From NCBI GenBank assembly GCA_016235425.1, contig JACRLC010000052.1, forward strand, positions 1 to 34,242: DNA of 34,242 nt, given 5' to 3'. The notes beneath the pieces were generated by a model. The model worked only from the letters and a program-made list of their open reading frames with translations. It had not been told where the DNA came from and made no database searches. A program made the translations under genes and the position numbers. Shown one piece after another: positions 21,987 through 33,459 of this stretch; position 1 is the stretch's first letter, and every line of letters begins with the position of its first letter. This DNA comes from Chloroflexota bacterium. GTDB lineage: Bacteria > Chloroflexota > Anaerolineae > Anaerolineales > Villigracilaceae.

Positions 21987-22976
21987 TTACTCGTTGAACA
22001 TCTCGCCAACCGACCGGCCTTCATGCGCGCGTTTGATCACTTCGCCCAGCATCGAAGCGACGGTGAGTATGGTGATGCGGTCTTTGAGACATTGCATTTT
22101 CTCTTCAGGGATGGGACAGCTATCCGTGGTGATGATGTGTTTGATGGGAAGCCCGGCCAGGCGCTTCGCCCCGCTGTTTGAAAGGATGGGATGCACAAAT
22201 GCCAGGTACACGTCGCGCGCGCCGTTCTTCTTGACCACATCCACAGCCTGCGAGATCGAGCCGCCGGTATCCACCTCGTCATCCACGATAATCGCGTCGC
22301 GGTTTGCCACATCGCCGATCAACGTAAGCGCCTCGGCTTTGGCGTCGTTACCCTGGCGGCGTTTTTCAATGAAAGCGACCGGCAAATCCATATCCGCCGC
22401 GTAGTTGCGGGCCTTCTTCGCAAAACCAAGATCGGTAGCCACCACAACAGGGTCCGCCATGCCCGCGCGCAAATGTTCATTGATATATTCGATAAGCATG
22501 TGAGAAGCCGTCAGCACATCGCCCGGCACGGAGAAGAATCCCTGGATTTGTCCCGCGTGCGGGTCGAGAGTCATGTAACGGTCCGCGCCTGCGACCTCGA
22601 GCATATCGGCCACCAGCCGCGCCGTGATCGGCACGCGCGGCTGGTCTTTCTTGTCCGAACGGCCATAGCACAGATACGGCACAACCGCCGTGATGCGCGC
22701 GGCTGAATCCAACCGCAGTGTTTGGATCGTGATCAACAACTCCATCAGGTTACGATGCACAGGCGAAGACGTGGTCTGGATCACATACACATCCTGTCCG
22801 CGCACACTCTCACCTAATTTCACGAAGATATTTTCGTTCGGGAACTCGATCACTTCGCGCGTACTCAAGCGCTGGCCGAGATAATCGGAAATCTTTTGAG
22901 CAAGTTCGGGCGAGCCTGTTCCTGCAAATAACTTGATCCCACCATATACTTTCAAATCGTGATGAAAGTGGTGCAT
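21987..22976 (-). CDS. prs: Ribose-phosphate pyrophosphokinase (PRPP synthetase)
   Basis: Makes PRPP from ribose 5-phosphate and ATP for nucleotide, His and Trp synthesis. It is 329 residues. The pieces KLFAGTGSPELAQKI, FVKLGESVRGQDVYVIQ, CYGRSDKKDQPRVPITARLVADML, TLDPHAGQIQGFF and the PRPP-binding VDDEVDTGGS are all in the usual order. The start at 22976 overlaps the GNAT stop as TAATG. Another in-frame ATG at 23009 falls inside that gene. It is a member of the minus-strand run MeaB-GNAT-Prs-Fpg. Confidence 0.92.
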   Translation of the reverse strand: MHHFHHDLKVYGGIKLFAGTGSPELAQKISDYLGQRLSTREVIEFPNENIFVKLGESVRGQDVYVIQTTSSPVHRNLMELLITIQTLRLDSAARITAVVPYLCYGRSDKKDQPRVPITARLVADMLEVAGADRYMTLDPHAGQIQGFFSVPGDVLTASHMLIEYINEHLRAGMADPVVVATDLGFAKKARNYAADMDLPVAFIEKRRQGNDAKAEALTLIGDVANRDAIIVDDEVDTGGSISQAVDVVKKNGARDVYLAFVHPILSNSGAKRLAGLPIKHIITTDSCPIPEEKMQCLKDRITILTVASMLGEVIKRAHEGRSVGEMFNE

Positions 22977-23536
22977 TATGATTGTTTCTCCTTCATACGA
23001 GCCGTCCACTCGGAGCGCAATACGCTCATTAAAATAATATCGTCATATTTGCCGTGTTTGAATACGGCCTCCCGCATCCGCCCTTCTTCCACAAAACCTG
23101 CCTTCTCATAAGCGCGTATGGCGCGCGGGTTATCGGCGTAGACTTTCAAACACACGCGGTTCAGGTTCAAGGTCTGGAAACAATGGCGCAGGAGCAGGGT
23201 CATCGCCTCGGTTCCGTATCCTTGGTTCCACGCGGATTTATCGCCGATCATGATCCCCAACTCGCCTGAACTGTTCACCCATTCGATGCCGAATACGCCG
23301 CAATTGCCGATCAGCTTCCAACCGTCGCCGTCACGCACTTCAATCGCCAGCGGCTTCTCGTTTGGGTCGCGTTGCAGGGAGCGCTCGAACCAATGCTCCT
23401 CTTCCACGTTCGACATCGGCAAATAAAGTGAAAGCCCATGCGTCACTTCGGGGTCATTCACCCAGGCATAATAATGTTTTACGTCCTCGCGTTCTGCCGC
23501 GCGCAAACGCACCTGCTCTCCATAGATCATGCTCAT
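22976..23536 (-). CDS. GNAT-family N-acetyltransferase (RimJ/RimL/SpeG-like)
   Basis: 186 residues of the Acetyltransf_3 type. It opens YGEQVRLRAAEREDVKHYYAW. The acetyl-CoA loop region reads SAWNQGYGTEAMTLLLRHCF, with the common end NLNRVCLKVYADNPRAIRAYEKAGFVEEGRMREAVF. Targets in this family vary (ribosomal proteins, spermidine, small amines) and cannot be told apart here. It overlaps MeaB upstream (ATGA, 23533-23536) and prs downstream (TAATG), so all three are translationally coupled. An internal Met at 23530 is a possible shorter start. Confidence 0.82.
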   Translation of the reverse strand: MSMIYGEQVRLRAAEREDVKHYYAWVNDPEVTHGLSLYLPMSNVEEEHWFERSLQRDPNEKPLAIEVRDGDGWKLIGNCGVFGIEWVNSSGELGIMIGDKSAWNQGYGTEAMTLLLRHCFQTLNLNRVCLKVYADNPRAIRAYEKAGFVEEGRMREAVFKHGKYDDIILMSVLRSEWTARMKEKQS

Positions 23537-24591
23537 TTTGACCTTTCACTTTCCCCTCTCCCCCTGGGAGAGGGGCCGGGGTGAGGGTTCATTAGCACTT
23601 TCACCGCTTCCCACGGTGAGAGGTTTCTTTTTACAACCTTCTCGACAATTTCATCATACTGTTTTTGCGGGACACCTTCGCGGAAACGACTCATCAGCGT
23701 CTCCCGGATCAACGCATCCAACTCGACCTCGAGCCTGGCGCGCTCACGAGAGGCCCAATCTCCGCTTTGACGTAAGTGCGCCGCGTGCTTCGCAACCAGC
23801 CCCGCCAGTTCGGCAATGCCAGTGCCCTCGGTTGAGACCGTCCGCTGGATCGGCGGAATCCAGATCATGCCATCGCGCGGAGCCGCCTGTACAGAGTCGC
23901 TCATGATTTGACCGTGATGCCTGAACACGCGTTGACTCGGATGCGCCAGATCCAGCATGGACTTCAACGATCTTTCCGTGTTCTCCACACCGGGACGGTC
24001 CGCTTTGTTGACAACAAGAATATCGGCAATCTCAAGGATGCCTGCCTTGATCGCCTGAATGTCATCGCCGAGGCCGGGGGCTTCCACAACGATGGTCGTA
24101 TGCGCGAGCCCGGCGATATCCACTTCGCTCTGCCCCGCGCCAACCGTTTCGATCATCACAATATCATATCCCGCCGCATCGAACACTTGCACTACGCTTG
24201 CAGTTGCCTGGGCCAGCCCGCCGAGCGAACCGCGCGAGGCCATTGACCGGATGAACACCCCGGCATCGCCTGCCAGGTCGCGCATTCGCACGCGGTCGCC
24301 AAGCACCGCCCCGCCCGTGAACGGACTCGACGGGTCAACCGCCACAATCGCCACACGTTTATCGTCCTGCCTGCGGAAATGCAAAGCCAGTTGGTTGACC
24401 AGCGAGGATTTCCCCGTGCCCGGTGCGCCGGTCACACCGATGAGATGCGCCCTGCCTGTGTGAGGAAACAACTCGGCCAGCGCGGCGCGGCCTTCCAATG
24501 AATCGTTTTCAACTTGAGTGAGCAGGCGTGCCAGCGCGAGCCGGTCGCCGCCAAGAACGGAGGATGCCAAAGTCATGAACTCATTGCTCAT
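23533..24591 (-). CDS. meaB: MeaB-type GTPase, chaperone of B12-dependent mutase
   Basis: G protein that gates loading and protects methylmalonyl-CoA mutase. It is 352 residues. The P-loop GAPGTGKSS is at about 55-63. The conserved AVDPSSPFTGGAVLGDRVRM and FIETVGAGQSEVDIAGLAHTT-like stretches and the NKAD base motif are all present. The last 18 residues (NPHPGPSPRGRGESERSK) come from a palindromic repeat at 23553-23588 and are not a normal MeaB end. A short gap with a hairpin separates it from the B12-binding subunit gene. That subunit is present but the large mutase chain is not in the window. Confidence 0.92.
   Translation of the reverse strand: MSNEFMTLASSVLGGDRLALARLLTQVENDSLEGRAALAELFPHTGRAHLIGVTGAPGTGKSSLVNQLALHFRRQDDKRVAIVAVDPSSPFTGGAVLGDRVRMRDLAGDAGVFIRSMASRGSLGGLAQATASVVQVFDAAGYDIVMIETVGAGQSEVDIAGLAHTTIVVEAPGLGDDIQAIKAGILEIADILVVNKADRPGVENTERSLKSMLDLAHPSQRVFRHHGQIMSDSVQAAPRDGMIWIPPIQRTVSTEGTGIAELAGLVAKHAAHLRQSGDWASRERARLEVELDALIRETLMSRFREGVPQKQYDEIVEKVVKRNLSPWEAVKVLMNPHPGPSPRGRGESERSK
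23553..23588. repeat. CCCTCACCCC-type palindrome at the meaB end
   Basis: CCCCTCTCCC (23553 onward) and the matching GGGAGAGGGG arm are followed by GCCGGGGTGAGGGT. It is translated as the PHPGPSPRGRG tail of MeaB on the minus strand. It is the same family as 10339-10412 and 21555-21589. Confidence 0.65.
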
Positions 24592-24606
24592 TCCATCATA
24601 CGCGAA

Positions 24607-24631
24607 ACGGATTACGTAAATCGTAATCCGT
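24607..24631. repeat. 10-bp hairpin between B12-subunit and meaB genes
   Basis: ACGGATTACG (24607-24616) and CGTAATCCGT (24622-24631) make a perfect stem with a TAAAT loop. There is no T run behind it. It could slow transcription between the two genes or be a stray repeat. Confidence 0.5.
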
Positions 24632-24644
24632 GATCGCTAAAGTT

Positions 24645-25043
24645 CTATCCCATCACCGCGTGTTTGACCTCGCGGATAATATCGTCAGTGGAAGCGCCGG
24701 GACCGTACACCCCGGTCACGCCCATTTCTTTCAGGCGGTGCAGGTCTTCATCCGGGATGATGCCGCCGATGAACACCTTCACGTGGGACTGCCCGTTCGC
24801 TTTCAACAATTCCATCACGCGCGGCGTGAGCGCCATGTGCGCGCCGGAAAGCACCGAGAGGCCCACCACATCCACATCCTCCTGCAAGGCGGCTTCGGCG
24901 ATCATCTCAGGCGTCTGGCGCAGGCCGGTGTAGATCACCTCCATGCCTGCATCGCGCAATGCGCGCGCCACCACCTTTGCGCCGCGGTCATGTCCATCCA
25001 AGCCGGGCTTGGCAACCAGTACACGAATCTTACGTTCGGTCAT
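24645..25043 (-). CDS. B12-binding subunit of methylmalonyl-CoA mutase type
   Basis: 132 residues forming one cobalamin-binding domain (PF02310). The cobalt-binding D-x-H-x-x-G motif is visible as LDGHDRGAK (H18). The SVLSGAHM and GGIIPDED segments hold the B12 tail, as in small subunits of methylmalonyl-CoA mutase or related acyl-CoA mutases. The protein is too short to be a whole mutase and needs a large subunit elsewhere. The ATG has a GGAGG site five bases upstream and a -10 TATAAT (25071-25076). It lies directly upstream of meaB on the same strand, which is functionally consistent. Confidence 0.9.
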
Positions 25044-25239: not shown

Positions 25240-25482
25240 ATGAAGACGCCGCGTGATTATTGGCCGCGCTGGGCAGAGACCTTGCGCCGATATCAGCTCA
25301 ATGAATTTGCCGCCTCGCTTCTCGAAGCAGGAAGTCCTCTTGCTGTACTTGGAGCGCAGGCGCTTTATTTTAGCCGCGGCTTCTTCGGCAATGACCAGCT
25401 CACCGCCCTCGCCGCCACCCTTGAAGAAGAAAGTGAAGCCCATGCTTTCGCCTCATTCTTAACCCAGGAGGCCGCCCAATGA
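25240..25482 (+). CDS. Small hypothetical protein, first of the membrane/ASKHA operon
   Basis: 80 residues, mostly helical by composition (MKTPRDYWPRWAETLRRYQLNEFAASLLEA), with no transmembrane segment, no cysteines and an acidic C-terminal half (LEEESEAHAF). No family was recognised. It opens an uninterrupted plus-strand run to 33459 and overlaps the next start by ATGA (25479-25482). The start is likely leaderless. The gene might be a soluble partner of the membrane proteins it precedes. Confidence 0.6.
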   Translation: MKTPRDYWPRWAETLRRYQLNEFAASLLEAGSPLAVLGAQALYFSRGFFGNDQLTALAATLEEESEAHAFASFLTQEAAQ

Positions 25483-26210
25483 CCGAACTGATCATACTTG
25501 CAGTTGTCGCGGCGCTCCTGCTCACCCTCACGCTTTGGAAGCGAAAGTCCCCAAAACAATTACGCGCCATCCCGGCATTCACACGTCTTTACAGTGCAAT
25601 GGGGTTAAGTGTGGAAGATGGTACGCGCCTGCACATCTCACTTGGGCATGGAAGTTTGCTCACGCCGCGCGGCGGATCGGCTTTGGCCGCGCTTGCCATG
25701 TTACGACATCTCGCCGAACGCACCTCCTCCAGCGACCGTCCTCCGGTTGCCAGTTCCGGCGATCCGGTTTTGAGTCTGCTCACACAGGATACTTTAAAGG
25801 AAGGTTACATCGCCGCGGGCGCGGAGGAACTCTTCGTCCCCACAACCGGGCGGCTGACAGGAATGAGCCCCTTCGGTTTTGCCGCGGGAACCATGCCCGT
25901 CGTCCGCGATGAGAACGTATCCGCTAACATCATGGTGGGAAGTTTCGGGCCCGAGTCTGCGTTGATTGCAGATGCCGCCGAGCGCGGCAATGTAATCACC
26001 ATCGGCGCAAGCGACGACCTCACGGCGCAATCCATCCTGTTCGCCGCCGGGCAGGACGCATTGATTGGCGAGGAGCTATATGCCTCCGGCGCGTACCTGG
26101 GCGCAGGTGCAGTACATCCCGCCAGCCTGACCGTGCAGGATATTCTGCGCTGGGTCATTATTCTCGTTTTGTTTGGCGGCGCATTCGCAAAACTTGCGGG
26201 GGTGATCTGA
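25479..26210 (+). CDS. Membrane protein with DUF6754-like domain
   Basis: 243 residues. There is a transmembrane helix at each end (about 3-20 and 222-241). Between them is a soluble part with repeated conserved phrases: RLHISLGHGSLLTPRGGSALAALAML, AAGTMPVVRDENVSANIMVGSFGPES and LIGEELYASGAYLGAGAVHP. This resembles the DUF6754 family of uncharacterised proteins (by memory, not search). The function is unknown. The start and stop overlap both neighbours, so it is coupled to the next membrane protein. The glycine-rich central fold could be a Rossmann-like or binding domain. Confidence 0.65.
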   Translation: MTELIILAVVAALLLTLTLWKRKSPKQLRAIPAFTRLYSAMGLSVEDGTRLHISLGHGSLLTPRGGSALAALAMLRHLAERTSSSDRPPVASSGDPVLSLLTQDTLKEGYIAAGAEELFVPTTGRLTGMSPFGFAAGTMPVVRDENVSANIMVGSFGPESALIADAAERGNVITIGASDDLTAQSILFAAGQDALIGEELYASGAYLGAGAVHPASLTVQDILRWVIILVLFGGAFAKLAGVI

Positions 26211-26842
26211 TGCGCGTCCTGACCGCCGTTATCGCGATTGCCTTCGGCTTGCTCGTTCTCGCGGGCTATTTCATCCCCGCGCTTCATGAATGGCAAACGC
26301 TCCTGTTGAACTGGGCAATGATCCTCGCCGCCGCCGCCGCAATTGTGGGCGTGTTCAATCTCATCTCCGTGCATGGCGAAAAGATCCGGCAACGTGAAAA
26401 GGGTAATTTATACAGCGCACTTTTGATCATCAGCCTCGTATCGACGTTTTTATTCGGCCTCGTCCAATACCTGACGCAGGGCGCTGTGCGCGTGCTTCTC
26501 GATGACTTGATGAGCACACTCGTCAACGGCATTATCTTCCCCGCCGAAGCCATGCTGATGGGATTGCTCACCGTCACCCTGCTTTACACAGCCATCCGCC
26601 TCCTGCGCCGCCGCGCAAATCTGATGAGCATCGTTTTCCTGATCACTGCCGCGTTGATCCTGCTCGGCACGGCCACCCTGCCATTTGGGGACATGCCAGT
26701 CTTTAGCGGATTGCGTACCTTTATAACGCAAACGCTGGCAGTGGGCGGTGCGCGCGGCATCCTGATCGGTGTGGCGCTTGGCACGCTCACCACCGGCCTG
26801 CGCGTGCTCCTGGCAACAGACCGCCCCTACGGAGGCAAGTGA
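26210..26842 (+). CDS. Six-helix membrane protein, unknown
   Basis: 210 residues. It has about six hydrophobic segments (near 5-22, 32-52, 70-90, 105-130, 140-157, 170-195) and a charged loop GEKIRQREKGNLYS after the second. It overlaps the genes before and after by TGATG. No family was recognised. It may form the membrane platform of the operon. Confidence 0.65.
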   Translation: MRVLTAVIAIAFGLLVLAGYFIPALHEWQTLLLNWAMILAAAAAIVGVFNLISVHGEKIRQREKGNLYSALLIISLVSTFLFGLVQYLTQGAVRVLLDDLMSTLVNGIIFPAEAMLMGLLTVTLLYTAIRLLRRRANLMSIVFLITAALILLGTATLPFGDMPVFSGLRTFITQTLAVGGARGILIGVALGTLTTGLRVLLATDRPYGGK

Positions 26843-29277
26843 TGCCGGATATTACCTGTCCCGTATGCGGTGAGGTCAACTCGGCGGACCAGGAATTCTG
26901 CCAGTATTGCCAATCGCGCCTCGAACCGCTGACCGGCCCGCTCAAAGGCGCGGACGCGCCCATCACGCCGGGCCAGCATCCCACAAAGAAAACGACCGCG
27001 GAACTTGAACCGATCCTGCCTCAATGGTTGAGGGAGGCGCGCGACAAAGCGCGCAAGACAGTTGAAGAACAGGCCGCGCAGGAACCCCAACCCCCAACAC
27101 CCGCTTCCCCGCCGGACCTGTTGGCTGGTCTGCAATCCCAGGGAGGCCATGAAGAAGAAGAGACTCCCGACTGGCTGGCAAGCATCACAGGCGCGAAACC
27201 GAAGGCGAAGAAAACCGAGGCCGAACCCACCGAAGTCCATTGGGTGGAATTGGGCAAGCCGGATGAATTCATGCGGGAACAGGATGAAGAAACGGGCATC
27301 CCAGCCACCCAGGAGCCATCTGCCTCTGCAAGCAAAGGCGGATTGCCTCCGTGGTTATCCAGCGCCCAGCCCACACAGGAAGATGGAGTCGATGAACTAA
27401 CGGCATGGTTCCGTCAGGAAAGTGAAGGCGAAAAGCCGCGGGCGGAGAAACCTGCTTTTTTAACGGATGCAGGTTCCGGGTCGTCCGAGGCGCTTTCAAA
27501 GTCGAGCGAAGAGACGCCAGATTGGTTAAAAAGTTTACAGGCGGAGCAATCCGCGCAGTTGGAAATCCCGCAAGCTGAAACGTCCCTGCCGGATACATCG
27601 AATGCGGACTGGTTGAAGAACCTGCAGGAACAACAATTCGATGCGGGACAAGAAAGCGCCGGGAGGGAAGCACCGATCCAGGGCGAGGTGCCAGCCTGGT
27701 TAAAGGGCGATACCACACCGCCCTCCGAAACAAAGGAAGTGCCGTCCTGGTTGCGCGGCTCAAGCCCTCCAGCGTTCACCTCCGAAGAAACATCCTCGGC
27801 GGAGGAACCCGCAGGGGAAAATCTTCCCGATTGGCTCAAGGCCGCCGCGCCGCAATCATCGGTGTTCGAGGAAGAGACGGCCGCGCCTGCACCCGCAGAG
27901 AGTCCCGATTGGCTCTCCTCACTTCAAAAAGAAGGAGCCGCCTCCATCTTTGAACCGGAGACACCCGAAGAGGGCGCGCCGCCGTCCGCCTTTGTGGATG
28001 AATCGCTCTCCAATGTAAACACGGACGCGCTCTTCACCGAACTTCCCGATTGGCTTTCAAATGTAAGCCCGGCGGAGACGAGCGCAACATCTGCCGAAGC
28101 CTCACTAACCCCGCCGGCTAAAAGCGCGGAGACTCTTGAACCCGGCGACCTGCCGTCCTGGGTGCAAGCCATGCGCCCGATTGAATCTTCGATGGCGGCG
28201 CAACAAGCGCCCGCCTCGGTCGGCGGCGAACAACCGCTCGAGACGCGCGGCGCGCTGGCGGGACTGCACGGTGTTCTTCCGGCAGTGCCGGGCGTGGGCG
28301 CTTCCAGCAAACCGAAATCCTATTCGATCAAGCTGCAAGCCAGCGAGGAACAGCAGGCGCACGCTGAATTGCTGGAGCAAATTCTTGCGGCAGAGACAGC
28401 GCCGGAACCAATCGCTTCGTTTTCGCCGCTGGCAGCCCAACGCGGACTGCGCTGGCTGCTGGCAATTTTATTGTTCGCCGCCGTCGGCGCTATGCTGTTT
28501 TTACGGACACAGTCCTTCGCAGTGCCATCGGGTGAAACAAACGAGATCAGGGACGCGCGTTTGATCACGGAAGCCATCCCCGAAAACGCGCCGGTTTTGG
28601 TTGTCATTGATTATGAGCCCGCGCTGGCCGGTGAAATGGAAGCGACTGCCGCGCCTTTGCTCGACCACGCCATCATCCTGAAACATCCGATCCTGACTTT
28701 TATTTCAACGAACCCAATCGGTGGAATGCTTGCTGAACGCCTCTTCACCGGACCTCTGAAAGACCGCGGTTATCAACGCGGGACTCAGTACCTGAACCTG
28801 GGTTACCTCCCCGGCGGCCTGACAGGTGTTCGGGCCTTCGCACAAAACCCTGCCGCGGCCGTGCCCTTCGACATGGACCTCGCCCCCGCATGGACGGGCA
28901 CGCCGTTGCAAAACGTGACGTCGCTTGGGCAATTTGCGGCCATGATCGTGATTACAGACAATGCCGAATCCGCCCGCACGTGGATCGAACAGACTGCTGA
29001 CAAGCGCCCGGCAACACCCCTCATCATGGTCTCCAGCGCGCAGGCCGCGCCGATGATCGAACCCTACTACCAATCCCGCCAGGTCAGCGGCATGGCGAGC
29101 GGACTTCACGACGGTGCGATCTTCGAACGAAACAACGCCGGTCTTCCCGGCCTCGTGCGCGGGTATTGGGATACGTTCAGTGTTGGCCTGCTTTTGGGAA
29201 TGGTCTTGATCCTGGGTGGCGGTTTGTGGAACCTGGCGCTCGGCCTGCGGGACCGCGCTATGGCAGAGGGAAAATAA
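26842..29277 (+). CDS. Zinc-ribbon membrane protein with eleven W-L short motifs
   Basis: 811 residues. An N-terminal zinc ribbon has C6, C9, C20 and C23 (CPVCGEVNSADQEFCQYC). A low-complexity, acidic, Pro/Ser/Glu-rich region runs from about 40 to 520. Within it the motif [LTVS]-P-[DASPQ]-W-[LV] recurs with tryptophans near residues 62, 111, 171, 228, 257, 286, 303, 331, 357, 404 and 440. A transmembrane helix follows at about 537-556, then a folded external domain to about 775 and a last helix at about 778-802. The even spacing of the motifs suggests many docking sites for one partner. GGAGG lies six bases before the ATG; the GTG one codon earlier is too close to it. The function is unknown. 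Confidence 0.7.
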   Translation: MPDITCPVCGEVNSADQEFCQYCQSRLEPLTGPLKGADAPITPGQHPTKKTTAELEPILPQWLREARDKARKTVEEQAAQEPQPPTPASPPDLLAGLQSQGGHEEEETPDWLASITGAKPKAKKTEAEPTEVHWVELGKPDEFMREQDEETGIPATQEPSASASKGGLPPWLSSAQPTQEDGVDELTAWFRQESEGEKPRAEKPAFLTDAGSGSSEALSKSSEETPDWLKSLQAEQSAQLEIPQAETSLPDTSNADWLKNLQEQQFDAGQESAGREAPIQGEVPAWLKGDTTPPSETKEVPSWLRGSSPPAFTSEETSSAEEPAGENLPDWLKAAAPQSSVFEEETAAPAPAESPDWLSSLQKEGAASIFEPETPEEGAPPSAFVDESLSNVNTDALFTELPDWLSNVSPAETSATSAEASLTPPAKSAETLEPGDLPSWVQAMRPIESSMAAQQAPASVGGEQPLETRGALAGLHGVLPAVPGVGASSKPKSYSIKLQASEEQQAHAELLEQILAAETAPEPIASFSPLAAQRGLRWLLAILLFAAVGAMLFLRTQSFAVPSGETNEIRDARLITEAIPENAPVLVVIDYEPALAGEMEATAAPLLDHAIILKHPILTFISTNPIGGMLAERLFTGPLKDRGYQRGTQYLNLGYLPGGLTGVRAFAQNPAAAVPFDMDLAPAWTGTPLQNVTSLGQFAAMIVITDNAESARTWIEQTADKRPATPLIMVSSAQAAPMIEPYYQSRQVSGMASGLHDGAIFERNNAGLPGLVRGYWDTFSVGLLLGMVLILGGGLWNLALGLRDRAMAEGK

Positions 29278-29278
29278 C

Positions 29279-29971
29279 ATGGTCATCTCCCCCGAATTAA
29301 TTGAACTCATCACGGGCATCCTGAGCTTTCTGATTACTTTGATGATCCTGAGTTACCTGATTGGCGACAATCCGCTGTTCCGCATTGCGGCCTATCTTTT
29401 CACGGGCGTCTCGGCAGGTTACATCGCAGTGGTGGCATGGTGGCAGGTTTTACTGCCGAAGCTGGTGTATCCGCTAGTCTCCGGCAACCCAATGGAAAAA
29501 GCATTCGCGGCCATTCCTCTTTTTGGGGTTGGGTTAATCCTCATGAAAATATGGCCGCGCTTGAGCAAGATCGGAAATCCCGCGATGGCTTATCTCGTAG
29601 GGGTGGGCGCGGCGGTGGCAATCGGCGGCGGGCTGACAGGCACACTCTTCCCACAGATCGGCGCAACGATCAACGCCTTTGACATAAACCTTGTCCCATC
29701 CGACAGGCCGCTTGGTTTCGTCGGTTGGATTTTGAACGGCGGGATCATTTTGCTGGGAACAGTCACATCGCTGGCGTATTTTCACTTTGGGGCAAACGCC
29801 AAACCCGACGGTTCCGTCAAACGCTTTATCCTGATCGAGATTCTCGCCTGGGTCGGACAGATCTTCATCGCAATCGCTTTAGGTGTCATCTTCGCGGGCG
29901 TTTATGCCGCCGCGTTGACCGCGTTCATCGAACGCATTTCGTCACTCCTTAAATTCATTGGATTACTCTAG
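29279..29971 (+). CDS. Polytopic membrane protein, unknown
   Basis: 230 residues with six or seven hydrophobic segments (about 8-30, 37-60, 75-93, 100-125, 147-170, 180-205, 206-226). Glycines are frequent in the helices (GVGAAVAIGGGLTGTLFPQIG). The ATG is at 29279, two bases after the previous stop. An upstream in-frame reading (29216) belongs to the earlier gene. It ends five bases before the MutL-like gene. No family was recognised; it could be the membrane anchor for the ASKHA protein. Confidence 0.65.
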   Translation: MVISPELIELITGILSFLITLMILSYLIGDNPLFRIAAYLFTGVSAGYIAVVAWWQVLLPKLVYPLVSGNPMEKAFAAIPLFGVGLILMKIWPRLSKIGNPAMAYLVGVGAAVAIGGGLTGTLFPQIGATINAFDINLVPSDRPLGFVGWILNGGIILLGTVTSLAYFHFGANAKPDGSVKRFILIEILAWVGQIFIAIALGVIFAGVYAAALTAFIERISSLLKFIGLL

Positions 29972-29976
29972 CCACT

Positions 29977-31734
29977 ATGCCCACATCATTGGTTGAAGGC
30001 GACTCTCTATTGGCAGTGGACGTCGGCGCGGCCACCACGCGCGCCGTGCTTTTCGACGTTGTGGAAGGCGGATACCGATTCGTTGCATCTGGCCAGGCGC
30101 CATCCACAGCGGAAGCGCCATTTAAGGACGTGAGCGAAGGGGCGCGCAACGCCATCGAGAATTTGCAGGCGATCATTGGCCGCGCCCTGCTCAATGGCAG
30201 CCGCGACCTCATTACACCGAGCCAGTCCAATGGGTCCGGGGTGGACGCGTTTGTCGCCACTTTATCCGCCGGGCCGACGATGAAAGCAGTCATTGTGGGG
30301 TTGTTGACAGACGTATCTTTGGAAAGCGCGCGGCGTCTCACCGAGACCATTTACGCGCGCATCGTGGACACGATGTCGCTGAACGATCACCGCAAATCCG
30401 AACAGCAGATTGACAGCCTTCTGCGCGTGCGGCCCGACATCGTCGTCATCACGGGCGGCACAGATGGCGGCGCGTCGCGTTCGATCCAAAAGATGTTGGA
30501 GCCGGTGGGGCTGGCAAGTTTCCTGATGCCGGCAGACAGGCGGCCGGCGGTGCTGTTCGCGGGCAACCAGAAAATGGAAAGCGAGATCAAATCGCTGGTC
30601 GGGTCGCTGGCTCCGTTGCTCCACTTCAGCCCGAACGTGCGTCCCTCGCTCGAAACCGAAGACCTCGACCCCGCGGCACGCGAGTTGGCGCGCCTTTTTG
30701 TGAACGTCCGCAAGAAACAGATCAAGGGCGTGGATATGCTGGATATTTGGTCACACGGACATATCCTGCCGACGGGTTATGCCGTTGGCCGTATGATGCG
30801 CTTCTTGAGCAAGGTTTACAGTTCGACCAAGGGAATCCTGAGTGTGGATATCGGCGCATCGGCCTCCGTAATCTCAGCCGGGTTCAGAGGCAAATCCACG
30901 CTGGGCGTTTACCCGCAATTCGGCCTCGGCGAGAATTTGCCCGGCCTGCTCAACTACACAACATTGGAAGACATATTGCGCTGGTCGCCGCTCGATATTC
31001 CCAGCGATGCTCTGCGCGATTATCTTTATCAAAAATCCCTGTATCCTTCCGCCATCCCGGCCACAAAAGAGGACCAGGCTCTCGCCCAGGCGGTTTCGCG
31101 CCAGGCGTTATATCTCGCCATGCAAACGGCGCGGCGCGACTTCCCGCGCACCGCTTCAACCTTGAAATCGGGCCTGCTTCCGTTATTTGAACCGATCCTT
31201 GCCGGAGGAGGCGCGCTCAGCGACTCGAACCGTCCCGGTGATGGACTGCTCCTTTTGCTGGATGCCCTCCAGCCCATCGGCGTCACAACGGTCATCCTGG
31301 ACCAAAACAACCTGCTCCCATTGCTTGGAACGGCCGCGGCCCGAAACAATTTGCTCCCTGTGCAAGTGCTGGACTCCGGCGCGTTCCTGAGTGTTGGCAC
31401 TGTGGTCGCGCCGGTGGTCTCCACTACGTACGGCGCGCCCATCCTGCGCGCCAAATTGGAATACGACAACGGCACGGAAGCGCGCGTGGATGTCAAGTTC
31501 GGCAGTCTCGAAACCCTGCCCCTGCCGAGCGGCACAGCCGGAAAACTGACCTTCCAACCCATGCGCGGCGTGGATGTTGGATTCGGCCCGGGTCACGGAG
31601 GCACATTGCCGGTCAGCGGCGGCGCGCTGGGTGTGGTCTTCGACGGGCGCGGCCGTCCGCTTAATCTTCCGGCAGATGGCGTGCGCCGCCGTGAATTGAT
31701 CAAAAAGTGGCGCTGGACGCTGGGAGGCGAATAA
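29977..31734 (+). CDS. MutL-type ASKHA protein (glutamate mutase L family)
   Basis: 585 residues, close to the usual size. It carries two phosphate-binding motifs of the actin/Hsp70/hexokinase fold: LLAVDVGAATTRAVLFD (about 11-27) and ILSVDIGASASVISA (about 287-301). An adenosine-type motif PILAGGGALSD lies at about 406-416. The pattern matches the MutL proteins of B12-dependent glutamate mutase operons (PF13941), thought to be reactivases or chaperones. Here the neighbours are membrane proteins and not mutase subunits, although a B12 subunit and meaB lie 5 kb away on the other strand. It probably binds ATP and switches its partners; the partner is not known. Confidence 0.8.
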   Translation: MPTSLVEGDSLLAVDVGAATTRAVLFDVVEGGYRFVASGQAPSTAEAPFKDVSEGARNAIENLQAIIGRALLNGSRDLITPSQSNGSGVDAFVATLSAGPTMKAVIVGLLTDVSLESARRLTETIYARIVDTMSLNDHRKSEQQIDSLLRVRPDIVVITGGTDGGASRSIQKMLEPVGLASFLMPADRRPAVLFAGNQKMESEIKSLVGSLAPLLHFSPNVRPSLETEDLDPAARELARLFVNVRKKQIKGVDMLDIWSHGHILPTGYAVGRMMRFLSKVYSSTKGILSVDIGASASVISAGFRGKSTLGVYPQFGLGENLPGLLNYTTLEDILRWSPLDIPSDALRDYLYQKSLYPSAIPATKEDQALAQAVSRQALYLAMQTARRDFPRTASTLKSGLLPLFEPILAGGGALSDSNRPGDGLLLLLDALQPIGVTTVILDQNNLLPLLGTAAARNNLLPVQVLDSGAFLSVGTVVAPVVSTTYGAPILRAKLEYDNGTEARVDVKFGSLETLPLPSGTAGKLTFQPMRGVDVGFGPGHGGTLPVSGGALGVVFDGRGRPLNLPADGVRRRELIKKWRWTLGGE

Positions 31735-31736
31735 CC

Positions 31737-32792
31737 ATGCAGGCACCCGTTCATCACATCCTCGCCCTGACCACGATTGTCCGTGAACGCGTCCTGCCCG
31801 TCGCAGGAACCGTGACCGCGCGTTTGAATCAAAAGGTCAGTTCAGGGGATGTCATTGCAGAAGCAAACTGGGCGCGCGAACATATTTTGCTGGATGTAGC
31901 GCGCGCGTTGCGCGTGTCTCCGAACGCGGCAGATCGTCTTCTGAAGTGCAAAGTGGGCGATACGCTCGCGGCCAGTGCAGAAATTGCAGTGGGCAAAGGT
32001 TTGTTCCCGCGCAGTGTGCGCGCCCCGCGCGAGGGCAAGGTGGTCGCGGCGGGCGGCGGACAGGTTCTGATGGAAGTCGGTGAAACCAGGTTGGAACTGC
32101 GCGCCGGCATCCCCGGCACGATCATTCAGATCATTCCAGGACGAGGCGCGGTCATTCAAACCGCGGGTGCATTGATCCAGGGCGTTTGGGGAAACGGGCG
32201 CATCGATACCGGCCTGCTCGTCAGCCTTGTGGAAAAACCGGATGCCGTCCTCACTGCCAGCCGGCTGGACGTGAGCCTGCGCGGCTCGATCATTTTAGGC
32301 GGTTCCGTGAAAGATGCCGAAACCCTGCAAGCCGCGGCCGAACTGCCCATACGCGGTCTGATCGTTTCGAGCTTGCCCCCCTCGCTCCTGCATCTCGCAC
32401 GCGAGATGCGTTACCCGATCGTTGTCACAGACGGCTTCGGCACAATGAACATGAACTCTGCCGCCTACAAATTGCTCAGCACAAATGCCAAACGTGAAGT
32501 CACAGTCAATGCCGAGACATTCGACCGTTACACCGGAACGCGCCCCGAAGTCATTATTCCGCTTCCCATTTCACAGGATCCAACCGTGCCGCGCGATGTG
32601 GACACGTTCGCGCCCGGTCAACAAGTGCGTTTGAGACGACCACCCTCGGCGGGAGCGATCGGCACGTTGGTGAGCATCAAGCCCGGCCTGACCATCCTGC
32701 CCAGCGGACTGCGCGCGCACGCCGCAGAGGTCAAACTCGAGAGCGGTGAATTGGTCATCGCGCCTCTCGTAAACCTTGAAGTTGTGGGATAA
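31737..32792 (+). CDS. Beta-rich protein with barrel, Rossmann-like and KOW-like parts
   Basis: 351 residues in three parts. Residues about 15-160 hold two hammerhead or biotinyl-like beta pieces (VLPVAGTVTARLNQKVSSGDVIAEA and APREGKVVAAGGGQVLMEVG). Residues about 180-280 read like a small alpha/beta fold (IRGLIVSSLPPSLLHLAREMRYPIVVTDGFG). Residues about 300-351 look like an SH3/KOW-type barrel (FAPGQQVRLRRPPSAGAIGTLVSIKPGL). It has no signal peptide or helices, so it is cytoplasmic. The ATG at 31737 follows the MutL-like stop by two bases. The function is unknown, but it would fit an adaptor of the ASKHA protein. Confidence 0.65.
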   Translation: MQAPVHHILALTTIVRERVLPVAGTVTARLNQKVSSGDVIAEANWAREHILLDVARALRVSPNAADRLLKCKVGDTLAASAEIAVGKGLFPRSVRAPREGKVVAAGGGQVLMEVGETRLELRAGIPGTIIQIIPGRGAVIQTAGALIQGVWGNGRIDTGLLVSLVEKPDAVLTASRLDVSLRGSIILGGSVKDAETLQAAAELPIRGLIVSSLPPSLLHLAREMRYPIVVTDGFGTMNMNSAAYKLLSTNAKREVTVNAETFDRYTGTRPEVIIPLPISQDPTVPRDVDTFAPGQQVRLRRPPSAGAIGTLVSIKPGLTILPSGLRAHAAEVKLESGELVIAPLVNLEVVG

Positions 32793-32922
32793 TAGAAAAA
32801 AATTCGCGCTCCCGAGAAAGCATCGGGACGATGCAGCAGAGGTCGGACTCTGAGCGAAGACAAAGAGAAAGACCGCAGTCGAAGCGCATGTGTCATGACT
32901 TTGAAATTGAGGAGAGTGCTTC

Positions 32923-33459
32923 ATGTATGAAGGTGATGAATCCAACTTTGACGCCGCGCCCCCGGAAGAATCAAGCAATCGCACCTTCCTGATTGCCGCC
33001 GGAATCCTGGGTGGTATCGTATTGCTGTCCATTGCATGTCTCGCCGGATATGCCTTGTTGGTTGTGCCAGGGCAAAGACAGGCCGCGCAACAAGCCGCCG
33101 ACGCCAAAGCAACCCAGGATGCCCAGATCAACCAGGCTGTGACAGCCACCTTCGAGGCATCCATCTTCCCGACCCAGACCCTGCCTCCCACGCCGACCCA
33201 GGTGGTGGCACAGGCTTCGGCAACGAATACTCCCTTTGCCGTCACGCCCAGCCCTGACCCGGCCACTGCCACCGTTGCCGCAGCATTGACCCAGGCCGCC
33301 GCCGCCCAACTGACCGTCGTGCCAACGTCAACAGCCTTACCCGGCACAGGCTTCGCCGATGAATACGGCCTGCCAGGTCTCGTGGTCATGGCGATGGCAT
33401 TTATGGTTGTGATCCTGTTGGCACGCCGCTTACGCAGCGGCCCGACAATTTCAAAATAA
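32923..33459 (+). CDS. LPXTG-type surface protein with N-terminal anchor
   Basis: 178 residues. A 24-residue hydrophobic segment (about 23-48) follows an acidic, charged N-terminus. An Ala/Gln coiled piece and a Thr/Pro/Ala-rich linker (about 80-140) come next. The C-terminus has LPGTG (about 140-144), a hydrophobic stretch LVVMAMAFMVVILLA and a final RRLR, the full order of a sortase signal. The linker is typical of an exposed, flexible stalk. No sortase is in the window. A GGAG site precedes the ATG. It ends the operon before the terminator at 33479. A role as a membrane or surface spacer is inferred. Confidence 0.7.
   Translation: MYEGDESNFDAAPPEESSNRTFLIAAGILGGIVLLSIACLAGYALLVVPGQRQAAQQAADAKATQDAQINQAVTATFEASIFPTQTLPPTPTQVVAQASATNTPFAVTPSPDPATATVAAALTQAAAAQLTVVPTSTALPGTGFADEYGLPGLVVMAMAFMVVILLARRLRSGPTISK

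Follow-up and report, generated by a model that had tools for sequence, protein, structure and literature searches.

A conserved Chloroflexota gene set with a MutL-family ASKHA protein appears to encode a membrane-anchored machine

Eight neighboring genes, whose content and order are kept in many relatives and partly across much of Chloroflexota, seem to specify a membrane-anchored machine for which we found no earlier description. It includes a protein of the MutL family, which has been described as a glutamate-mutase helper (PMC4682846). Our favored reading, with a probability of roughly 0.45, is an ASKHA switch that is tethered to the membrane on a multivalent scaffold and may serve polarity or surface organization. 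In the open-licence literature searched we found no description of the eight-gene system, no mention of DUF6754 and nothing relevant on MutL together with glutamate mutase in Chloroflexota.

Organization and conservation of the eight-gene run

The window, i.e. the whole analyzed stretch of 34,242 nucleotides from a Chloroflexota contig, contains a run of eight open reading frames, A to H, on the plus strand between 25240 and 33459, preceded by two genes on the opposite strand:

23533..24591, minus strand: context, MeaB, GTPase chaperone of the mutase (TIGR00750, 339 bits)
24645..25043, minus strand: context, methylmalonyl-CoA mutase small (B12-binding) subunit (TIGR00640, 176 bits)
25240..25482, plus strand: A, soluble protein of 80 aa without known family (no Pfam match)
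25479..26210, plus strand: B, DUF6754 membrane protein, 243 aa (PF20539, 6.6e-25, and hydropathy)
26210..26842, plus strand: C, membrane protein with six predicted segments, 210 aa (hydropathy)
26839..28428, plus strand: D1, putative scaffold half of D, aa 1-530 (zinc ribbon and 10 P-x-W-[LIVM])
26857..26910, plus strand: zinc ribbon of D, CPVC...CQYC (sequence motif)
28429..29274, plus strand: D2, membrane half of D, aa 531-812 (AlphaFold)
29279..29971, plus strand: E, membrane protein with six predicted segments, 230 aa (conserved GDNPLFR...GY...GT..PQ)
29977..31734, plus strand: F, MutL-family ASKHA protein, 585 aa (PF13941, 1.1e-61)
31384..31731, plus strand: C-terminal extension of F, ~aa 470-585, GGxLGxVxDxRGRPLxLP (alignment)
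31737..32792, plus strand: G, soluble partner of F, 351 aa (AlphaFold)
32923..33459, plus strand: H, two-segment protein of 178 aa with LPGTG-type sorting end

As the initial annotation had stated, all eight genes share one strand and the first four overlap, by 4 nt (A/B), 1 nt (B/C) and 4 nt (C/D). The corrected start of E (29279) falls 1 nt past D and that of G (31737) 2 nt past F, and G and H are separated by 130 nt. A simple hydropathy scan assigned no membrane segment to A and G, two each to B, D and H and six each to C and E, in agreement with the earlier picture of A as small and soluble, C as a six-helix and E as a polytopic protein; the single hydrophobic stretch of F lies inside its fold. 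A scan for promoters and terminators between 24900 and 34242 yielded 18 terminator-like sites against an expected 11.1 (sd 3.9) and 4 promoter-like sites against an expected 3.1; none of them was drawn on here.

Conservation of this order, proposed earlier as a check, was found. The locus set comprised the best 80 of 398 relatives of E on genome contigs, all 80 being Chloroflexota loci labeled as Anaerolineae, genera thereof or plain Chloroflexi, several of these contigs being common to the F-based locus set. Among these best 80 every gene was present wherever the contig reached: A in 71/71, B in 73/73, C in 74/74, D in 76/76, F in 70/70, G in 68/68 and H in 65/65 loci. As far as the contigs permit, A, B, C, D2 and E remain grouped in the fetched loci, relatives of A lying upstream of B in 22 of 40. 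PF20539 (B) was detected in 38 of 151 genomes, every one with F, a count that, like the other co-occurrence counts over genomes given here, ignores shared descent; B and F were both detected in 37 of them, F of the 38th (G105) being broken by a contig end. In 29 of these 38 genomes the two genes share a contig, within about 7 kb of each other; in eight they are on separate contigs, G105 being the ninth in which they are not linked. Among 14 control genomes outside Chloroflexota the Pfam profiles found no PF20539 and two weak matches to PF13941 (F). Five genomes (G003, G013, G075, G033 and G117) carry F-G without A-E in the fetched stretch, so the membrane unit would be dispensable for the role of F-G there.

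The modular protein D and the membrane proteins

D is a fusion of two modules that are found apart elsewhere, a zinc-ribbon P-x-W-L scaffold and a two-helix membrane unit. Its first part, D1 (aa 1-530), carries a CxxC...CxxC ribbon, matched by zinc-ribbon Pfam families at 9.3e-05 and weaker, below their cut-offs, and, within a linker of low complexity, 10 P-x-W-[LIVM] motifs, against a mean of 0.23 and a maximum of 2 in 1000 shuffles. The zinc ribbon reported earlier was thus recovered, and the eleven W-L motifs reported with it become ten unless the W-L of a membrane helix is counted. The number of motifs in D proteins reaches 63 elsewhere; of 34 D proteins, 28 have more P-x-W-L than any of 200 shuffled versions, and the remaining 6 show no excess. 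D1, which we consider the probable cytosolic scaffold half, occurs without the A-B-C-D2-E unit but beside F, mostly also beside G, in ten fetched loci and in L250-L256, while in L060, L068 and L244 D2 lacks D1 and accompanies A, B, C, E, F and G (in L244-L246 the lone D2 was judged by length and the missing motif).

The AlphaFold model of D2 (mean pLDDT 88.1) consists of a helix, an alpha/beta Rossmann-like domain and a second helix. The best fold match is 1kjn (VIA Z 9.3), with RCK and dehydrogenase-type folds about 1-2 Z behind, and Foldseek returned no match at E <= 0.001; we take the fold as generic alpha/beta. The domain probably lies outside the cell. B is DUF6754-like, as annotated earlier (PF20539, 88.2 bits, cut-off 27), with a hydropathy-predicted membrane segment at each end, and its soluble part is probably cytosolic, judging from the KRKSPKQLR that follows the first segment. 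Profiles of B, D2 and E gave nothing usable against solved structures. The LPXTG-type nature of H also held up: it shows the predicted features of a sortase substrate, with LPGTG near the C-terminus, a membrane helix and a basic end, in a genome with five PF04203 sortase matches. Among the 40 fetched loci H was found only in its own gene order, with relatives in 12 plus the window.

The P-x-W-L motif is also present in the tail of F at two loci, L047 and L049, and a TPR protein encoded in the window's genome has 12 copies. Relatives of this TPR protein are found in 52 of 62 genomes with F and in 10 of 89 others; 38 of 41 surveyed loci yielded a TPR protein, 24 of the 38 with 0 to 3 motifs. A further P-E-W-L cluster of the same genome (C62) belongs to an LRR-ROC-like protein, named by eye, which lies outside this system. 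The motif proteins of this genome were drawn from 100 of 120 motif places, and another motif-rich protein may exist.

The genes could also form a conserved block of separately acting proteins with nothing but transcription in common. The restriction of H to its own order among the 40 fetched loci, its 130-nt spacing and the 11 tested genomes in which G is not lost but encoded once, away from F, would fit such a block, yet it leaves unexplained why D fuses modules that occur apart elsewhere, why A, B, C, D2 and E are kept together where contigs permit and why genes overlap, and we regard it as unlikely.

The MutL-family protein, its partner G and the mutase question

F is MutL-like, as first proposed, and passes PF13941 with 209.4 bits (cut-off 27). 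It falls far below the GlmL cut-offs, with 98.8 bits for NF040745 (cut-off 475) and 74.6 for TIGR01319 (cut-off 204.05), and its C-terminal extension is missing from both GlmL rows of the alignment; by these sequence features F is not GlmL. The phosphate-1 (D/E-x-G), phosphate-2 (D/N-x-G) and adenosine Gly motifs are present in 19 of 20 non-GlmL rows, L062 being degenerate. Phosphate-2 of F is without the last residues of the GlmL motif, so ATP hydrolysis is uncertain. In a tree with the two GlmL rows the GlmL pair is supported at 100/100 and its split from the other rows at 61/74; since this split is weak and the divergent F rows G003 and G075 group with GlmL on long branches, a single clade of all F is unsupported by the tree.

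An F profile that included the two GlmL rows gave PilM as the most sensible PDB match, a weak one (E 0.013), and in Pfam, searched up to E 1, F matched neither an FtsA nor a PilM family. F replacing FtsA was ruled out: FtsA was matched in 151 of 151 genomes. FtsW/RodA was detected in 62 of 62 genomes with F, and the 17 genomes without it all lie outside that set, a link that says little because eight of the 17 belong to one family. The PilM match, the ASKHA protein travelling with membrane genes, and the pili that Chloroflexales have near septa (PMC7332563) would suit a pilus or secretion apparatus whose cytoplasmic platform contains F as the counterpart of PilM/GspL, with B, C and E as inner-membrane platform proteins. 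This is improbable, as Pfam recognized no assembly ATPase, pilin or secretin in the eight genes (the flanking frames being mostly unannotated), B and E match no solved structure usably, and the same paper names for these pili the Tad genes, a separate known set (PMC7332563).

G adjoins F in 28 of 37 F-clade loci, and the 12 genomes tested have one G match each. G is the partner of F, and the two proteins probably make physical contact. Its AlphaFold model (mean pLDDT 88.6) comprises a barrel part (~1-120), a swivelling domain (121-276) and a KOW domain (288-351), with a fold match to 2hi6 (VIA Z 11.3) and a KOW of NusG/Spt5 type. The KOW domain named in the initial annotation was therefore retained, and the middle domain, there called Rossmann, is matched best by swivelling beta/beta/alpha folds, RraA among others. 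When G lies away from F, it is followed by a receiver-MglB protein in 11 of 11 loci. The MglB domain of this neighbor matches MglB in the PDB at 1.9e-15 and stays below the NCBIfam MglB cut-off (28.1 vs 200). In G110 and G118 a small GTPase adjoins an MglB-like gene, that of G110 matching solved MglA at 1.7e-73. The MglB-like neighbor domain is absent from the window's genome and was found in 1 of 18 genomes of its own class (G072, weak).

It is quite doubtful that F-G is a nucleic-acid or translation-linked factor at the membrane (KOW, RraA-like swivelling domain, zinc ribbon, TPR), for example in local mRNA handling: the KOW domain of G aligns with NusG/Spt5 and ribosomal-protein folds and the middle domain with RraA among others, but KOW and swivelling domains can mediate contacts between proteins too, Pfam recognized no RNA enzyme in the eight genes and the membrane parts would be left unexplained.

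The divergent mutase small-subunit gene starts about 200 bp upstream of the run, with the MeaB gene next to it, so the earlier statement that no mutase chain is present stands for the run, where Pfam recognized no glutamate mutase chain, and fails for the window. The subunit lies upstream in 5 of 13 own-order loci, window included, and adjacent in 11 of the best 80 of 398 E relatives; a B12-binding subunit profile detects a neighbor in the window, there of methylmalonyl-CoA type, and in 4 of the 37 F-clade loci. A MutL-like protein occurring mostly with mutase subunits, named beforehand as the observation that would count against a membrane system, was not seen, F going with A-E or G. The two true GlmL loci (G089 and G060) have an adjoining B12-binding mutase subunit and neither A-E nor G in the stretch. 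The proposed co-occurrence check was also made: the methylmalonyl-CoA mutase large subunit (PF01642) is found in 113 of 151 genomes, 59 of 62 with F and 54 of 89 others, and was not detected in G072 (complete A-H operon, genome 99% complete), G077 and G121, which have F.

That F is a reactivating chaperone of a B12-dependent enzyme, like GlmL, with the membrane genes in the complex of that enzyme, as the initial annotation had offered, is very improbable and is rejected on neighbors and PF01642 co-occurrence (a search confined to this B12 enzyme), for all that F is in the MutL family, that the subunit and MeaB lie upstream and that 59 of 62 genomes with F have the large subunit: adjacency is infrequent, the mutase is common anyway, three genomes have F and no detected mutase, F misses the GlmL cut-offs, and MeaB is the known chaperone of methylmalonyl-CoA mutase (PMC10481361).

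The proposed machine and its relation to known systems

The other initial suggestion, that an ASKHA protein may switch an envelope machine, is a reasonable hypothesis since the order is conserved, F goes with these genes or with G, and the nucleotide-binding motifs are kept. In the machine that we propose A, B, C, D2 and E would form the membrane unit, its D2 domain facing outward and its DUF6754 domain facing the cytosol. F and its partner G would be the cytosolic part that moves or switches, and D1 would join it to the membrane unit. The zinc ribbon and P-x-W-L array of D1 may serve as a multivalent docking strip that holds many copies of a cytosolic partner at the membrane, either F-G or the separate TPR protein with the same motif, and ATP binding or hydrolysis by F would alter which partners stay held. 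Because G stands beside a receiver-MglB protein where it lies away from F, the state of F-G is there probably set by two-component signaling and the MglA/MglB polarity pathway.

A bolder version, which we hold to be unlikely, is that the ATP-driven F-G layer, coupled through the P-x-W-L array of D to an outward-reaching membrane complex and steered by MglAB, is the core of a Chloroflexota polarity or surface-movement machinery. The receiver-MglB protein and an MglA-MglB pair would then set place and time in genomes of Chloroflexus and Herpetosiphon type, and in non-gliding relatives the machine might position activities of the surface or cell wall along cells or filaments.

In many Chloroflexota a family described as a glutamate-mutase helper is part of what appears to be a conserved membrane assembly. 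Naming these genes by their family match alone would probably mislead. The assembly provides concrete testable candidates for questions of Chloroflexota cell biology.

F shares with GlmL/MutL (NF040745, TIGR01319, PF13941) the Pfam family and the nucleotide-binding motifs, with 22-23% identity to the two GlmL rows, but scores far lower, has about 110 additional aa at the C-terminus and is encoded next to membrane genes and G rather than mutase chains. As with ASKHA proteins of PilM/FtsA type, F apparently acts at the membrane, here via a scaffold, and the terminal tail of some F and D1 proteins is basic and aromatic; unlike those ASKHA proteins, F matches PilM only weakly and no FtsA family. 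The gene family that follows G in the 11 loci has an MglB-like domain, as in the MglA/MglB polarity switch, whereas here this domain shares a protein with a receiver domain, and the window's genome lacks it. Finally, D resembles multivalent motif scaffolds in being a membrane protein in which a single short motif recurs in a low-complexity array, and differs from them in that the array is P-x-W-L with a zinc ribbon, a combination for which we know of no described receptor.

Organization and conservation of the gene run

The initial annotation described a run of eight genes on one strand, the first four overlapping, and the open-frame coordinates bear this out: frames A to D overlap and are followed by gaps of 1 nt (D-E), 5 nt (E-F) and 2 nt (F-G). 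The divergent upstream neighbours, which that annotation did not name, are a mutase small subunit and MeaB; they adjoin the operon in some relatives only.

Features of the gene run (open frames A to H) and its divergent neighbours, with Pfam results
21987-25043, minus: mutase small subunit, MeaB, GNAT gene and PRPP synthetase-type gene
25240-25482, plus: A, no family above cut-off
25479-26210, plus: B, DUF6754 membrane protein, well above cut-off
26210-26842, plus: C, six-segment membrane protein, no family above cut-off
26839-29277, plus: D, zinc ribbons alone, below their cut-offs
29279-29971, plus: E, six-segment membrane protein, no family above cut-off
29977-31734, plus: F, MutL, well above cut-off
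31737-32792, plus: G, soluble partner of F, no family above cut-off
32923-33459, plus: H, LPXTG-type, no family above cut-off

A search of 151 Chloroflexota genomes with PF13941 gave a match in 82, above cut-off in 64. Two of these 64 (G089 and G060) carry true GlmL, the MutL-family accessory protein of glutamate mutase, at 454 to 567 bits, against a maximum of 268 bits in the remaining genomes; the other 62 constitute the F+ set. Forty neighbourhoods were fetched and searched with profiles built from the proteins of the window. F was present in 39 of them (none in L070), including two GlmL loci, which leaves 37 F-clade loci. Besides the window, the number of fetched loci with a match is 22 for each of A, B and C and 24 for E; the order shared among the fetched loci is A-B-C-D-E-F with two exceptions: L032, where the called frame of C runs beyond the start of B, and L063 (genome G015), where an extra frame separates E from F. 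Of the 37 F-clade loci, 28 have G right after F; the nine others comprise seven of Chloroflexus, Herpetosiphon or G150 type, L063 (a short contig) and L050 (no G called). Among the 40 loci, H is limited to 12 of the same family and same order as the window, and to the window itself.

Named genomes were scanned with E, and the best 80 of 398 relatives were taken. These 80 are titled as Anaerolineae, genera thereof, or plain Chloroflexi/Chloroflexota, and each gene is present wherever the locus extends to its expected place; the set overlaps the 40 loci, several being the same records. Conservation of the gene order in Chloroflexota, a check proposed with the initial annotation, is thus confirmed in the fetched loci and the 80 E loci.

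In the f9 family (L063; L234 of genome G002) the E-F gap reaches ~1.6 kb, and other fetched loci holding both genes differ. Some assemblies are broken inside or near D (L258, L264 and split contigs of G012, G024, G052 and G078), which divides the operon between contigs; the repeats of D are perhaps the cause.

The F-G pair and the modules of D

D has two parts: D1 carries the zinc ribbon and the P-x-W-L array, and D2 is an alpha/beta domain with a helix on either side. A D1-type D accompanies F without A, B, C and E in ten fetched loci (L050-L053, L055-L057, L059, L062 and L064), nine of which also have G; the motif count is 0 or 1 in L056, L059 and L062. Seven further D1-type loci were found (L250-L256). 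In L060 and L068 the genes A, B, C, E, F and G are accompanied by D2 without D1, and L244-L246 look D2-only where contigs allow, with a D of ~300 aa and the motif absent. D without P-x-W-L occurs in G015, G105, G129 and L048, and F-G without A-E within the fetched stretch in G003, G013, G075, G033 and G117. In our reading F-G forms the core; D1 is one addition to it and the A-B-C-D2-E unit another, and the D1-D2 fusion links these two.

The phosphate-1, phosphate-2 and adenosine motifs of F are recognisable in 19 of 20 non-GlmL sequences, the exception being L062. In this F relative (L062:8542-10227, minus strand) phosphate-1 and phosphate-2 look degraded, and by its sequence it is possibly a non-ATPase member.

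The middle domain of the predicted G model (pLDDT 88.6) matches the UPF0107/aconitase-X small subunit (Z 11.3, rmsd 2.5, 112 residues), rifampin phosphotransferase (Z 11.1) and RraA (Z 9.9), and for the C-terminal part the matches are KOW domains from NusG, Spt5 and ribosomal proteins (Z ~8-9, 50-60 residues). By eye, no phosphohistidine motif was seen in the swivelling part. Exactly one G match per genome was obtained in all 12 genomes tested, the window's own and 11 without G beside F.

The P-x-W-L motif and a TPR protein

In 28 of the 34 D proteins, P-x-W-L is more frequent than in any of 200 shuffles (exceptions L048, L056, L059, L060, L062 and L068). When the D set is put aside, just two frames from the window and the 40 loci have at least two motifs. 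One is F of L047, with the motifs in its tail; the other, 97 aa long, is apparently spurious. The tail of F of L049, a protein counted within the D set, likewise has such motifs. A pattern search of the window's own genome gave the following protein.

L079:7885-10818 (own-genome contig C22), minus: TPR-linker-TPR protein, 977 aa, 12 P-x-W-L motifs

It is the only other motif-rich protein among the matches listed (100 of 120 pattern places). A P-E-W-L cluster at L080:7273-10353 (minus strand, contig C62) was rejected as belonging, by eye, to an LRR-ROC-like protein, leucine-rich repeats mimicking the pattern.

Relatives of the TPR protein were detected in 62 of 151 genomes at 1e-10; by counts that ignore shared descent, 52 genomes have both it and F, 10 F only, 10 the TPR protein only and 79 neither, and some TPR-only genomes (G105, G033, G117) have F by a finer profile. 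At least seven motifs are present in 14 of the 38 TPR proteins read (the own protein, all 11 same-family and same-order relatives read, G011 and G124), and 0 to 3 in the remaining 24. In four Chloroflexus- and Herpetosiphon-type genomes the protein instead has another repeated motif, PFSLEELGLSPEEIAQ-like, of which a loose pattern counts 15 to 27 copies. The relative in Chloroflexus-type G118 (L111:5532-10847, plus strand) holds 23 exact PFSLEELGLSPEEIAQ copies and no P-x-W-L, so the repeated motif differs among lineages.

Signalling neighbours, proposed mechanism and known systems

Downstream of displaced G, on the same strand and within ~3.5 kb, one gene family is found in 11 of 11 loci. It directly adjoins G in five and is separated from it by a receiver-histidine kinase family in five (in one also by a small frame); in L281, where G was not called as a frame, strand and order agree with the rest by the match positions. 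The encoded protein combines a receiver domain with a C-terminal one; the alignment of the latter matches solved MglB, of the MglA/MglB polarity pair, at 1.9e-15, and Pfam and NCBIfam recognise this C-terminal domain only under their cut-offs. Relatives of this domain, ordinary MglB-like proteins included, occur in 30 of the 151 genomes searched, all F+, and are absent from the window's genome. A small GTPase lies beside an MglB-like gene in G110 (L319:4365-5522, Herpetosiphon-type), where it matches solved MglA at 1.7e-73, and in G118 (L320:4386-5534, Chloroflexus-type). We take G118 to be Chloroflexus aurantiacus and G110 Herpetosiphon aurantiacus, the class names being presumed likewise. 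A gene pair follows the receiver-MglB gene in two of three f28 loci (L279, L286). In Herpetosiphon-type L279 (10827-16077) G is followed by the signalling genes receiver-histidine kinase, receiver-MglB, FIST and GAF-STAS, the last two being that pair.

The architecture speaks for a membrane unit made up of B, C, D2 and E with A, for a cytosolic ASKHA protein with its steady partner (F-G), and for D1 as a multivalent strip between them. ASKHA proteins change shape with nucleotide, and F should therefore do so; the strip would hold many copies of a partner. Since F-G is kept in lineages without the motif, the TPR protein or some other cytosolic protein is perhaps a likelier receptor for the motif than F itself. 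Our confidence in this mechanism is moderate, somewhat below even odds. The sole outside clue is the MglB-like neighbour of G, which for the genomes that have it suggests polarity or surface movement; its absence from the window's genome counts against a general gliding role. It is improbable, at roughly one chance in eight, that the set forms the core of a Chloroflexota polarity or surface-movement machinery, with F-G as ATP-driven layer, a D-coupled membrane complex and receiver-MglB/MglA-MglB input in Chloroflexus- and Herpetosiphon-type genomes.

A section of PMC3368417 states that no homologues of the gliding genes from Myxococcus and Flavobacterium were found and that gliding genes of Chloroflexi were not identified; the MglA-like protein found here is one point against the former statement in that section. 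Excerpts of PMC7332563 report pili near septa, Tad genes only and intracellular filaments in Chloroflexales, and an excerpt of PMC13104615 lists Chloroflexota as additional gliding lineages. No paper on DUF6754 was found among the open-licence papers searched, and the gene set matches no described system found in the searches made here. Against solved structures the F profile places PilM on top, weakly. F is not GlmL. The end of its phosphate-2 differs from that of GlmL, and F has a C-terminal extension of ~110 aa with GGxLGxVxDxRGRPL, which is absent from both GlmL sequences.
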